From Chitinophagales bacterium 65-1 (lineage in GTDB: Bacteria; Bacteroidota; Bacteroidia; Chitinophagales; Chitinophagaceae), in the NCBI GenBank assembly GCA_002050465.1, contig MWYX01000053.1, positions 1-41,942 on the forward strand: DNA of 41,942 nt, read 5' to 3'. The translations under genes and the position numbers were made by a program. The first letter of the stretch is position 1. Every line of letters starts with the position of its first letter. Below the pieces are notes generated by a model. It did not search any database. It saw nothing but the letters and a program-made list of their open reading frames with translations, and was not told the DNA's origin. Positions 8,881-36,256 of the stretch are shown one piece after another.

Positions 8881-9936
8881 CTAAATATTTTCTGCCAGCT
8901 CAATTGCTTTTTTTAATGCATTCAATTTATTATTCACTTCCTGTAATTCACTTTCCGGTTGTGATACAGCAACTATGCCTGCCCCAGCCTGGTAAGTCAA
9001 AGTATTATCCTTACTTAAAAACGTTCTTATCATTATTGCATGATTACAGCTACCATCAAATCCCATAAAGCCAATACAACCACCATAGTAACTTCTTGGC
9101 TCAGATTCATATTCATTTATCAGCTGCATGGCCCTGTACTTTGGGGCACCACTTAATGTGCCTGCCGGAAATGTTACTGCTAACAGGTCAAATGGATTTG
9201 TATCTTTTCTTACAACACCTTTTACCTCGCTTACCAAATGGATAACGTGGGAATAATATTGTATCCTTGAGAATTCTGTAACCTTAACTTCATCACACAT
9301 CCTGCTAAGATCATTTCTTGCAAGATCTACCAGCATTACATGTTCGGCATTCTCTTTTTTATCAGTCAATAAGTTTGCGGCTAACTGCTGATCCACTTCA
9401 TCATCACCTGTTCTTTTAAATGTGCCTGCTATGGGATGGACAGTTGCTTTATTATTTTCAATTATCAACTGGCTTTCAGGACTGCTGCCGATCAGTTTAT
9501 AATCTCCATAATCAAAATAAAAAAGATAAGGACTTGGATTGATGCTTCTCAATGCACGGTATACATTGAACTCATCTCCTGAGAAAGATTGCTTAAACTT
9601 TCTACTTAAAACTATTTGAAAAACATCTCCACGATGACAACTGGCAATTCCTTTTTTCACCATCTCAATGTATTCTTCATTTGTAATTGATGAAGTTTCC
9701 TCTCCTTTTACTTTGAAAGGATATACAGGAACATCTTTACTTTTTATGAGGCTTTCTACTATATCAATTTCACTTACAATATTATCTATGTGATTCTCAC
9801 AAATAAATAATTCATCTTTAAAATGATTTATTGCTATCACGTACTGGTAAAGGCGATAACGCATTAAAGGGATAGCCCCCTCTAAACCTGCCTGCCGGTG
9901 GCAGGTCTCCCCCCAAAGGGGAGACTTTCGGAGCAC
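8881..9936 (-). CDS. trpE: trpE, anthranilate synthase component I, C-terminal part (frameshifted gene)
   Basis: This is the chorismate-binding half of TrpE, which makes anthranilate from chorismate with ammonia from TrpG. The native sequence begins at about IPLMRYRLYQYVIAINHF; the residues before it (LRKSPLWGETCHRQAGLEGA) are translated repeat, and the apparent GTG start at 9936 is probably not a true start. Catalytic-domain motifs are present: HPIAGTFKRTG, HVMLVDLARNDL, GTLSGAPKYRAM, YYGGCIGFMGFDG and the C-terminal YQAGAGIV. The upstream half of the gene is in another frame, and the junction lies in the repeat at 9874-9934. Without frame correction the enzyme would be split and probably inactive; a +1 frameshift would restore it. 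A base-calling error in the palindrome is also possible. Confidence 0.9.
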   Translation of the reverse strand: MLRKSPLWGETCHRQAGLEGAIPLMRYRLYQYVIAINHFKDELFICENHIDNIVSEIDIVESLIKSKDVPVYPFKVKGEETSSITNEEYIEMVKKGIASCHRGDVFQIVLSRKFKQSFSGDEFNVYRALRSINPSPYLFYFDYGDYKLIGSSPESQLIIENNKATVHPIAGTFKRTGDDEVDQQLAANLLTDKKENAEHVMLVDLARNDLSRMCDEVKVTEFSRIQYYSHVIHLVSEVKGVVRKDTNPFDLLAVTFPAGTLSGAPKYRAMQLINEYESEPRSYYGGCIGFMGFDGSCNHAIMIRTFLSKDNTLTYQAGAGIVAVSQPESELQEVNNKLNALKKAIELAENI

Positions 9937-10333
9937 TCAATTTAATAGTATCAAAAAACTGTATCGCATCAAATGTTGTATAGCCAAATAAACCCTGTGC
10001 AATATTCACCGGTTTTTTCGCAACTTCTTTCACATCAAAGCGCTGCATAAAATTTAAAAGATGACCTGTGATATTATTTGCTTTATCAATTTTTATTTTT
10101 TCAGGATTCCTGGCAGGCAGTTTAAATTCTATCTCGTGGGGATTAGTTATCTCAATACCTCCAATAGCATTGATACCAATAAAAGAATAGCTGTTCTCTC
10201 CGGCATGAAAATCTGTACTCTCCAATAAGACCGTATCCCTGAACCTGTCCCGCAGCCGCAGGTATATACCGACCGGTGTATATACATCCGCTAAAAGCTT
10301 TTTAAAAGAGGTATTGATTTCTATTTTCTTCAT
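9818..10333 (-). CDS. trpE: trpE, anthranilate synthase component I, N-terminal part (frameshifted gene)
   Basis: This is the N-terminal regulatory half of TrpE. The motif LLES (residues 36-39) with the following SFIGI marks the site where tryptophan binds for feedback inhibition in this family. Native TrpE sequence continues to about IQFFDTIKLSA, after which the reading frame enters the repeat element (KVSPLGGDLPP) and runs on in the wrong frame to a stop. The ATG at 10333 lies 12 bases after the attenuator T-tract. It is the first structural gene of trpEGDCFBA and belongs with the second half at 8881-9936. Confidence 0.88.
   Translation of the reverse strand: MKKIEINTSFKKLLADVYTPVGIYLRLRDRFRDTVLLESTDFHAGENSYSFIGINAIGGIEITNPHEIEFKLPARNPEKIKIDKANNITGHLLNFMQRFDVKEVAKKPVNIAQGLFGYTTFDAIQFFDTIKLSAPKVSPLGGDLPPAGRFRGGYPFNALSPLPVRDSNKSF
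9874..9934 (-). repeat. 61-nt composite palindromic element inside trpE
   Basis: Two hairpins in one GC-rich block: CTCCCC AAA GGGGAG type (9906-9924) and CCTGCC / GGCAGG (9887-9905), flanked by CCCCCTCTAAA and CTTTCGGAGC. It aligns along its whole length with 35768-35830 in the CCA-adding enzyme gene. It lacks two single bases in the second palindrome, giving 61 instead of 63 nt. The insertion lies between the regulatory and chorismate-binding parts of TrpE. Confidence 0.85.
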
Positions 10334-28045: not shown

Positions 28046-28086
28046 ACCTCACCTAAATCCTCTCCAAAGGAGAGGACTTGCGAAGC
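28046..28086. repeat. Intergenic relative of the composite palindromic element
   Basis: CACCTAAA followed by the inverted pair CCTCTCC AAA GGAGAGG and then a GAAGC tail has the same plan as the elements in trpE and the CCA enzyme gene (CCTCTAAA, CTCCCC AAA GGGGAG, CGGAGC tail), but without the GCCTGCC/GGCAGGC palindrome in the middle. It lies just after the TamL stop. Confidence 0.6.
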
Positions 28087-34498: not shown

Positions 34499-34575
34499 TG
34501 ATTATAAATTACTGATTATTGATTATTGCCTAATGACCATTGACTATTGACCATTGACCATTGACTATTGACTTT
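34499..34575 (+). repeat. Heptamer array at the 3' end of the CCA-enzyme gene
   Basis: From 34499 to 34575 the sequence divides into eleven contiguous 7-mers, mainly TGATTAT, TGACCAT, TGACTAT and TGACTTT. The reverse complement ATGGTCA is the unit seen in pdxJ. The last units run into the CCA-enzyme gene and supply its stop codon (TAG at 34567-34565, minus strand). Confidence 0.8.
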
Positions 34576-36103
34576 TAACAATCCCCATTTCCCTCGCTTT
34601 ATCAATCATAAATTTATGGGCCGCCTCATATTCGTTCGCAATTGCGCCATCTAAAATAGCTTCACGTATTGCCATTTTTATATCACCTACCTGGCGTGAT
34701 GGAGCAAGATTAAGTTCTTTCATTATCATTTCACCGGTAATCGGGGGCTGCCAGTTTCGTATTTTATCATTTTCCTCAACTTCTACCATGCGTTTATTTA
34801 CCATTTCAAAATTTTGCAGATAGCGCTTTACTTTTAATTTATTTTTTGATGTAATATCTGCTCTGCACAAGGTCATTAATGCATCAATGTCTTCGCCTGC
34901 ATCAAAAAGTAATCGCCGCAATGCAGCGTCAGTAATATTTTCTTTTGTGAGACTGATAGGCCTTAGATGCAACTCAATCATTTTTTTTACAAATTTCATT
35001 TTATCATTTTGCGGAAGCTTTAGCTGGTTGAATATTTTAGGAACCATTCTTCCGCCAACTACTTCATGGCCATGAAACGTCCATCCATGCCCCTCCTCAA
35101 ATTTTTTAGTTTTTGGTTTTGCGATATCATGCAATATGGCCGCCCAGCGCAGCCAAAGATCATTTGTATGCTTTGCAATATTATCCAGTACCTGCAGTGT
35201 ATGATAAAAATTATCCTTGTGCCCTTTTCCATCAATATATTCGGCGCCGGCAAGCTCCACCATTTGCGGAAAAATAATATTAAGTAATCCCGATGTATAT
35301 AAAAGTTTAAATCCAACAGAAGGAACATCGCTCAAAATAATTTTATTAAGTTCATCAGTAATTCGTTCAGTGCTTACAATTTTTATACGCTCTGCATTCT
35401 GTGTGATTGCTTCTAATGTATTTTTCTCAATATCAAAATGTAATTGGGTTGCAAAACGAATAGCTCTCATCATTCGTAAAGGATCGTCACTAAAAGTTAA
35501 CTCCGGCTTTAACGGGGTTTTAATTATTTTATTCTTCAGATCCTCCAGGCCATTGAATGGATCAACCAGTTCACCAAAACCTGCCTGTCCGGCAGGCAGG
35601 CCTGCCTGTCCAGCTGGGAGTTTTTCTTTATTTAAACTTATTGCCAATGTATTTATGGTAAAATCACGACGGTTTTGATCATCCTCAATTGATCCTTGTT
35701 CAACCTGTGGTTTTCGGCTCTCAGCGTTGTAGCTTTCCTTTCTGGCACCTACAAATTCAATATCAAAAGCCCCCTCTAAACCTGCCTGTCCGGTAGGCAG
35801 GTCTCCCCCCACAGGGGAGACTTCCGAAGCATCTTTTATTCTTGAGTCATTTAATTTTATCTGGGCAGTTCCGAAATTTTTAAAAATAGATATTTGCGGA
35901 GCAGGTTTAAATTGTTGTGCAACTTTTTCTGCCAGCGCAATACCATCTCCTACGCAAACAATATCAATATCTTTTGTATCTCTTTTTAAAATTTTATCTC
36001 TTACAAAACCACCGATTAAAAAGCACTGCATATCTAATTCATCTGCTGCTGCTGCAATCTTTTTTAATACAAATAATTCTTTATCGGTACAGCTTATATA
36101 CAT
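34565..36103 (-). CDS. CCA-adding tRNA nucleotidyltransferase with HD domain, carrying two repeat insertions
   Basis: This enzyme adds or repairs the CCA end of tRNA. The ATG at 36103 is chosen because the class II head starts there (MYISCTDKELFVLKKI); the reading frame opens 35 codons earlier without homology. The 512 residues include GGFVRD (31-36), the catalytic DID (Asp45, Asp47), DQNRRDFTINTLA, and an HD domain with RWAAILHDIAKP. Two segments are not part of the family: residues 92-112 (63-nt element) and residues 162-175, LPAGQAGLPAGQAG (two 21-nt units). Both keep the frame. They lie in the head near the metal site, in loops before the IEFVGARKES strand and before FGELVDPF, so tolerance is plausible but activity may be affected. 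Confidence 0.92.
   Translation of the reverse strand: MYISCTDKELFVLKKIAAAADELDMQCFLIGGFVRDKILKRDTKDIDIVCVGDGIALAEKVAQQFKPAPQISIFKNFGTAQIKLNDSRIKDASEVSPVGGDLPTGQAGLEGAFDIEFVGARKESYNAESRKPQVEQGSIEDDQNRRDFTINTLAISLNKEKLPAGQAGLPAGQAGFGELVDPFNGLEDLKNKIIKTPLKPELTFSDDPLRMMRAIRFATQLHFDIEKNTLEAITQNAERIKIVSTERITDELNKIILSDVPSVGFKLLYTSGLLNIIFPQMVELAGAEYIDGKGHKDNFYHTLQVLDNIAKHTNDLWLRWAAILHDIAKPKTKKFEEGHGWTFHGHEVVGGRMVPKIFNQLKLPQNDKMKFVKKMIELHLRPISLTKENITDAALRRLLFDAGEDIDALMTLCRADITSKNKLKVKRYLQNFEMVNKRMVEVEENDKIRNWQPPITGEMIMKELNLAPSRQVGDIKMAIREAILDGAIANEYEAAHKFMIDKAREMGIVKSQ
35579..35620 (-). repeat. Tandem 21-nt palindromic units inside the CCA-enzyme gene
   Basis: Two 21-nt units, each translated LPAGQAG, lie at 35579-35599 and 35600-35620. 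The first forms a palindrome with arms CCTGCCTG and CAGGCAGG. The second differs by a few bases. The surrounding protein (NKEK before, FGELVDPF after) is conserved in the family and would join directly without them. Confidence 0.85.
35768..35830 (-). repeat. 63-nt composite palindromic element inside the CCA-enzyme gene
   Basis: Same plan as the trpE element: GTCTCCCC / GGGGAGAC hairpin and a 21-nt palindrome (CTGCCT..AGGCAG), flanked by AGCCCCCTCTAAA and CTTCCGAAGC. It is 63 nt, in frame, encoding residues 92-112 with the LPTGQAG unit. Compared with the trpE copy it has two more bases in the second palindrome. Confidence 0.88.
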
Positions 36104-36157
36104 TGTACAAATGTAATTTTTTAAATTATCAGTTTTGTCGGATGCTATATTGATACA

Positions 36158-36256
36158 GATGAAAAGCTGCGGGATAGCAGTGAAAGCACGCTGAAGGTTT
36201 TTGTGCAAAGGTTTTGCGGCGGACTTGAAACGAATAGCACGAACTGAGGATGAAAA
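36158..36256. repeat. Candidate 91-nt element between 8-bp direct repeats
   Basis: GATGAAAA occurs at 36158-36165 and 36249-36256. Between them is a more GC-rich stretch with GCGGGATAGCAGTGAAAGCA, a small hairpin region around TTTTTGTGCAAAGGTTTTGC and a related GAATAGCACGAACTGA. The ends could be a target duplication or chance. It overlaps the upstream frame of the CCA-enzyme gene but not its chosen start. Confidence 0.4.

Follow-up and report, generated by a model that had tools for sequence, protein, structure and literature searches.

The 41,942-nucleotide contig MWYX01000053.1 of Chitinophagales bacterium 65-1 (assembly GCA_002050465.1), referred to below in its full length as the window, carries a gene for CCA tRNA nucleotidyltransferase with two palindromic insertions, one of which is a composite block that also lies in trpE, the gene for anthranilate synthase component I (Table 1). 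In the CCA gene, this composite (35768–35830) is built from an outer palindrome of about 42 nt (AGCCCCCTCTAAA - TCTCCCC..GGGGAGACTT - CCGAAGCA or similar) and an inner palindrome, CCTGCCTRCCGGACAGGCAGG, and forms 21 codons without a stop. A first-pass annotation of the window had suggested that the block may be a dispersed repeat adapted to coding DNA, inserted in both genes and holding a second element nested in the first. Our analysis indicates that the composite probably consists of two palindromic repeats, one inside the other, and that the inner element of about 21 bp moves alone and survives in coding genes.

The trpE composite (9874–9935) matches that of the CCA gene at 92% and has the same orientation relative to its gene, and in both composites the inner palindrome is joined exactly between TAAA and TCTCCC. 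The two blocks are thus the same composite, as annotated at first, except that the inner part in trpE measures 19 nt instead of 21. Insertion in frame applies to the CCA gene; the trpE copy is a failure case, in which the 19-nt inner copy broke the reading frame and left the gene split into two open reading frames (ORFs), a break that the first-pass annotation had overlooked. The listed 3' ORF starts with a GTG adjoining the element. When folded as a single strand, each composite yields two adjacent hairpins. An intergenic element, first described as a copy with the outer hairpin, shares the flanking phrases of the composites but has the stem CCTCTCC/GGAGAGG, making it a divergent relative.

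A second insertion in the CCA gene (35580–35621), which had gone unmentioned, consists of two consecutive inner copies in this genome, against one in the sister genome G015 and none in the 28 other aligned relatives. With up to three mismatches allowed, the inner 21-mer was found at two places in the window, compared to 0.00 expected from 100 shuffles, so that a chance origin of these matches is excluded. A scan of the window against Rfam gave no match at the element, its sole match being the Bacteroidales small signal recognition particle (SRP) RNA.

Table 1. Coordinates in the window of the composite palindromes, their parts and their host genes.
Feature	Position	Strand	Remarks
CCA tRNA nucleotidyltransferase gene (host gene 1)	34565–36208	-	547-aa single open frame with two insertions; best NCBIfam match under model cut-off
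Second inner palindrome of the CCA gene	35580–35600	-	LPAGQAG; one copy in sister G015, none in the 28 remaining aligned relatives
Inner palindrome, degenerate tandem copy	35601–35621	-	also read LPAGQAG
Outer element in the CCA gene, one flank	35768–35780	-	AGCCCCCTCTAAA on the + strand
Inner palindrome in the CCA gene, 21 nt	35781–35801	-	read LPTGQAG; missing here in 29/29 aligned relatives
Outer element in the CCA gene, stem and other flank	35802–35830	-	stem TCTCCCC..GGGGAGA; whole composite read ASEVSPVGGDLPTGQAGLEGA
trpE 3' fragment (anthranilate synthase component I, C-terminal part)	8881–9936	-
trpE 5' fragment	9818–10333	-	passes out of frame through the composite
Outer element in trpE, flank	9874–9886	-
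Inner palindrome in trpE, 19 nt (shortened)	9887–9905	-	frame breaks here
Outer element in trpE, stem and flank	9906–9935	-	in G010, the outer element stands here by itself and in frame
Intergenic divergent relative of the outer hairpin	28046–28086	undefined	CCTCTCCAAAGGAGAGG with TAAAT / ACTTGCGAAGCA flanks

The inner palindrome arrived within an older element

We aligned the CCA enzyme with 29 of the 55 relatives that have a CCA match, and the inner motif of the composite was present at this site in none of them. Three close relatives (G008, G010 and G015) have the outer element without the inner one at the orthologous position, its orientation being reversed in G015. At the trpE site, the outer element stands alone and in frame in G010; in G008 and G015 it is missing, and this variable loop is made up of other residues; this comparison covered the loci in which the motif was matched, 10 of 22 being left out. 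The inner palindrome is accordingly a later arrival within the older outer element in both genes, which bears out the nesting proposed in the first-pass annotation. The outer element itself has opposite orientations in sister species at this one CCA-gene site (L072 versus L073 and L074), reflecting either an inversion or repeated insertion there.

Composites with the same joint occur in further genomes, namely at L205 and L220 (in records named Mucilaginibacter), at L310 and in the viral contig L320, and at L008 the joint of the outer element is occupied by another palindrome, TCCGATAGCTATCGGA. The joint may be a recurrent landing place, or else composites may move as units. A palindrome CCGATAGCTATCGG recurs at L008 (1529, the copy in the outer-element joint), L004 (1727), L144 (1782), L228 (2546) and L374 (86).

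Nesting extends to other palindromes. After copies with repeated or short flanks had been set aside, 14 of 106 inner copies had complementary flank arms of at least 7 nt, whereas 100 re-pairings of the flanks gave 1.65 such copies on average and 5 at most. Four inner copies of Arenibacter sp. P308M17 (L198, L235, L240 and L272) share identical flanks, aaatcaggctcc / ctttagggtttg, and look like parts of a larger local repeat.

Insertion of the inner element is precise

The joined flanks of 18 inner sites were searched against G008 and G010, and an exact 21-nt difference between filled and empty site was observed against at least one relative at 15 of them, of which 14 are distinct because the initiation factor gene IF-2 was used twice. 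A net difference of exactly 21 nt rules out a target duplication. At three of the 15 (GlmM, L033 and L175), the net difference is 21 nt, yet the exact joint is left unfixed by diverged flanks; the remaining three of the 18 did not align cleanly. Following eight sites across seven genomes, we found six filled in a single species; the IF-2 site was occupied in both G000 and G015, the HscA site in both G000 and G010, and G003, G016 and G019 were empty at every site that their match crossed. Named hosts of the inner palindrome comprise RlmN, GlmM, HscA, RsgA, PheT, RecN, a PabB/TrpE-family protein, RsmH, gamma-glutamyltransferase and IF-2.

A purine precedes the inner element in 34 of the 37 genus copies and in 101 of the 119 from elsewhere (with T there in 0 and 1, respectively), and a pyrimidine, C or T, follows it in 33/37 and 92/119. 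The inner element thus has a target preference of R|Y, and these comparisons show that it moves separately, with precise insertion and without target duplication.

The inner element fits coding DNA

Coding and non-coding surroundings were distinguished with a codon-usage scorer, which was right at all 300 test points taken in window genes. It was applied to 76 unique genus copies, 39 of them 21 nt long and 37 of other lengths. Coding status was called for 20/39 of the 21-mers, compared to 4/37 of the others (Fisher P = 1.7e-4), two of these four being frameshifted. The remaining 19 of the 39 21-mers were uncalled, a class that includes two copies too short of flank. Among the 20 called 21-mers, 17 are read as LPTGQAG or LPAGQAG and one as LPDRQAG in the same phase, whereas two lie in other phases. 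Target preference, considered as a cause of this bias, falls short: a target profile built from 46 unique-flank copies outside ORFs predicts the LPxGQAG phase for 18.6%, as against the 17/20 observed (P = 2.5e-10). Six further 21-mers that the scorer left uncalled also fall in open frames and share the LPxGQAG phase, four with the named hosts GlmM, PabB family, RsgA and HscA and two (L162 and L194) without; another uncalled 21-mer, at L013, lies inside an open stretch of 470 codons.

Both variants of the inner palindrome taken together are free of stops in 11 of 12 frames, and because its length equals seven codons and stops are absent from nearly all frames, inner copies can survive in protein genes. 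The simplest cause of the frame bias would be selection favouring a small peptide that is uncharged and free of cysteine; in this genus, most copies in genes are read as the small, flexible peptide LPTGQAG or LPAGQAG, which the host protein presumably tolerates. The outer element, too, is read in genes mainly in two frames: 17 of its 43 listed copies are inside ORFs of 150 codons or more, nine in a form like KVSPxGGDLEGA and four in a form like APSKSPPxGETL.

Dispersal in the genome, the genus and across phyla

A search of the source genome (1.96 Mb in 68 contigs, 79.5% complete) with the composite block returned 46 matches at E <= 10, 27 of which were below 0.02. Pattern searches found 20 inner and 30 outer sites, the latter including shorter-stem variants such as TCTCCCTAAAGGGAGACTT, while reversed-pattern controls found 0 and 0. 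With so many further copies, and with the inner motif present at the CCA site in 0/29 aligned relatives, the dispersed-repeat reading of the first-pass annotation stands: the inner element lies in frame in unrelated genes and is missing from close relatives.

The inner pattern, which also accepts other cores, was found in 13 of 20 genus genomes: 65 sites in G015 (43 of which were retrieved), 20 in the source genome, 19 in G003, ten each in G010 and G012, six in G011, and one or two sites in seven; the remaining seven had none, among them G008, which is 98% complete. Copy load thus differs widely between sister species. The outer pattern matched nine of the 20, with clear copies, among the matches listed, in G000, G015, G010 and G008; its reversed control gave 0 in these four and one to three matches in nine other genus genomes. 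In the phylum, 75 of 395 sampled genomes contained the inner pattern, with a maximum of 61 sites.

Using one genome per species, we retrieved at least 117 stretches with an exact match to CCTGCCTRCCGGACAGGCAGG, of which 80 were named. By their record titles, these fall into about nine phylum-level groups: 42 Bacteroidota (including Ignavibacteriales), 15 Patescibacteria, 8 Omnitrophota, 4 Nitrospirota, 2 Dehalococcoidia, one each of Elusimicrobia, Thermodesulfobacteriota, Micavibrio and Obscuribacterium, and 5 unclassified. The exact 21-mer also occurs in records that are not labelled as metagenome-assembled genomes (MAGs), namely those of Arenibacter, Pleomorphovibrio, Salegentibacter and Muricauda. 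Among 121 exact copies, 71 are embedded in ORFs of 100 codons or more, and 37 of these use the LPxGQAG frame; under a stricter ORF limit the count is 32/60 (P = 3e-7 versus 23%). Ten recognisable ORFs chosen out of 22 in the LPxGQAG frame were scanned, and all ten had Pfam hits. Hosts supported in this way include TrmD in a Patescibacteria record, PheS and NAD-dependent DNA ligase in Moraniibacteriota, and a UvrD/PD-(D/E)XK protein in Elusimicrobia, and in alignments to solved TrmD and PheS structures the peptide falls within inserts that are 11 and 19 residues long.

Mechanism and alternative explanations

We propose that the inner element is a minimal unit of about 21 bp that moves by itself; as the comparisons above show, it usually lands between a purine and a pyrimidine, without target duplication. 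The outer element of about 42 nt, read through in genes, is the older of the two and may have moved in its own right. Because there is no target duplication and no gene within the element, movement would presumably depend on an enzyme that acts in trans and recognises single-stranded hairpins, of the kind proposed for repetitive extragenic palindromic (REP) sequences and IS200/IS605 transposases. We suggest more tentatively, as something quite possible but short of probable, that the seven-codon palindrome of 21 bp, open in nearly all frames, is a transposable unit shared across phyla, Patescibacteria included, that it enters core genes of translation and repair without destroying them and also lands in other palindromes, giving rise to nested composites, and that it is moved by such a trans-acting enzyme; it would then be the smallest known protein-coding mobile element.

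Several observations weigh against the main account of two nested repeats. In 43 stretches covering 44 of the 68 matches to Y1 transposases in the genus, no transposase could be tied to the element. The composite folds barely beat those of shuffled sequences (z of -1.8 for one and -1.1 for the other), and no clean empty site was seen for the outer element, because it sits in variable loops where relatives have different residues. In viral contigs, 20-mers lie in ORFs about as often as 21-mers (27/44 versus 15/27), so the length rule is not universal, and the 37 of 71 ORF-embedded copies in the LPxGQAG frame across phyla amount to a bias rather than a rule. Ten recognisable ORFs picked from 26 that carry the element in other frames all had Pfam hits upon scanning, including FolD, EPSP synthase, TGT and RecJ domains. 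Given other frames in genuine genes and the viral 20-mers, the useful property would be mainly openness in nearly every frame, with LPxGQAG favoured. The reversed control of the inner survey pattern matched about 14 of the 395 genomes, two of which had 13 and 48 sites, and the survey pattern is therefore a rough guide only; G349 and G214, moreover, are rich in similar palindromes with other cores (83 sites). Finally, a large share of the material is metagenome-assembled. Coding versions read LPAGKAG or LPAGEAG were also sought in other lineages and rejected: of 16 fetched G349/G214 loci, two fall within open frames exceeding 150 aa, and in both the reading is a different one.

Both palindromes could instead be ordinary REPs moved by a REP-associated tyrosine transposase (RAYT), with their copies in genes being accidental, a possibility that we take seriously while doubting it. 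Intragenic REPs are described for several species in the portion of the literature consulted (PMC3733652), as are in-frame REPs within tnpA-REP genes of a subclass abundant in Cyanobacteria and Bacteroidetes (PMC6006769, in part). The inner sites lack target duplication, Y1 transposases are found in 20/20 genus genomes (the 68 matches mentioned above), and GTAG is contained in the reverse strand of the A variant of the 21-mer, all of which would suit REPs. Against this, a left GTAG or CGTC is found in none of 37 genus copies, and at the right side CTAC is found in three and GACG in none; accidental entry into genes also sits poorly with 20/39 genus 21-mers called coding and their strong frame bias. 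Where the flanks of Y1 genes were readable, at five loci (L341, L344, L345, L340 and L342), other hairpins surround them; six loci were left out of this reading (L363, L347, L364, L349, L366 and L343), the ORF picked there not being a transposase. Among the 43 Y1 stretches, an inner copy was found in one only (L341), about 1.4 kb from the transposase gene, and none has the TCTCC..GGAGACTT outer element, although L422 has shorter TCTCC..GGAGA hairpins. A REPtron for either element was rejected on these grounds, no link having emerged among the 43 stretches. The Y1 genes at L341, L344 and L345 are flanked by hairpins of their own (GTTCC..GGAAC and CTCCGCC..GGCGGAG) in a REPtron-like arrangement.

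Copies might also have spread by homologous recombination or gene conversion rather than transposition. The CCA and trpE composites gained their inner part at the same joint, which conversion from a composite elsewhere could explain, but solo sites share little flanking sequence beyond R|Y and so offer little to recombine with, which makes this route unlikely for the element at large. One orientation and phase in 17/20 called coding genus 21-mers, against the 18.6% predicted, could alternatively mean that the insertion machinery itself picks the codon phase, entering between codon positions 2 and 3, for example via translated RNA. We consider this very improbable, given that Pfam-hit genes of other genomes carry the element in other frames, that two called genus copies lie in other phases, and that selection for a small neutral peptide is a simpler account of the bias. 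It is scarcely credible, lastly, that the inserts are conserved parts of the fold or assembly artefacts, even with many metagenome assemblies among the sources: relatives and solved structures lack the residues, which rules out the conserved-fold explanation, and copies stand in the records without a MAG label. Independent movement of a small nested palindrome that coding genes survive is the reading we retain.

Relation to known palindromic elements

The analogy with Rickettsia palindromic elements (RPEs), raised in the first-pass annotation, holds as far as it goes: by comparison of their features, the element is an analogue of this family, an in-frame coding palindrome, and not a member of it. 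Partial accounts of RPEs in Rickettsia and Wolbachia describe elements of about 100–150 bp that lie in frame in unrelated genes as well as between genes and are read as peptides (PMC3767692, PMC10969869, PMC4316617). Like RPEs, the element described here is palindromic and in frame in ORFs (the CCA gene and the 14 distinct filled/empty sites), with the trpE copy as a failure, and it likewise occurs between genes and is read into peptides. RPE peptides are expected in solvent-exposed parts of the protein; the peptides seen here fall in gaps of the alignments to solved TrmD and PheS. Unlike them, it is nested and far smaller, at 21 nt for the inner, about 42 nt for the outer element and 63 nt for the composite, and it crosses phyla, with no Rickettsia or Wolbachia among the 80 named records of the exact-match stretches.

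Intragenic REPs of the GTAG/CGTC families are reported, in the part of the source consulted, within ORFs that include tRNA synthetases and DNA ligase (PMC3733652). The inner element resembles REPs in size class, palindromic form, patchy distribution, occasional location in ORFs and lack of target duplication, and differs in having no GTAG/CGTC foot as a rule, no REPtron found and an identical 21-mer in many phyla. REPs are mostly extragenic; among genus copies of the inner element, coding calls were made for 20/39 of the 21-mers and 4/37 of the other lengths. The absence of target duplication and the short R|Y preference are shared with single-strand transposition of the IS200/IS605 type. PARCEL, a palindromic coding sequence with a punctate distribution and proposed horizontal transfer (PMC2996958, seen in part), is a tandem repeat domain of 25 residues, whereas the inner element mostly forms single inserts of seven residues, many in conserved genes. 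Nematomorph mitochondria are reported to have perfect inverted repeats of up to 284 bp within protein-coding genes (PMC6649704, in excerpt), but those are mitochondrial and confined to one animal phylum, while the inner element is bacterial and 21 bp long. Within the limited set of papers covered by our literature search, we found no description of the inner palindrome.

Insertions of this kind add seven residues to proteins that include tRNA synthetases, RNA methyltransferases, a chaperone and repair proteins, and LPTGQAG or LPAGQAG stretches in these predicted proteins are explained as insertions instead of motifs. With exact empty sites available in sister species, direct tests come within reach for the insertion rule, the fitness cost and the mobilising enzyme.

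Other small insertions in coding DNA

Two further inserts were seen in genes of this genus. In the gene for pyridoxine 5'-phosphate synthase (2045–2062 in the window), an 18-nt palindrome-bearing insert, AAGCCTGCCTGGACAGGC, lies in frame in a different phase and is missing from G008. HscA of G015 (L457) contains a 27-nt in-frame insert, read about NARLNDTVGQ, some codons past the LPxGQAG site of G000 and G010, which is possibly another coding mini-element.
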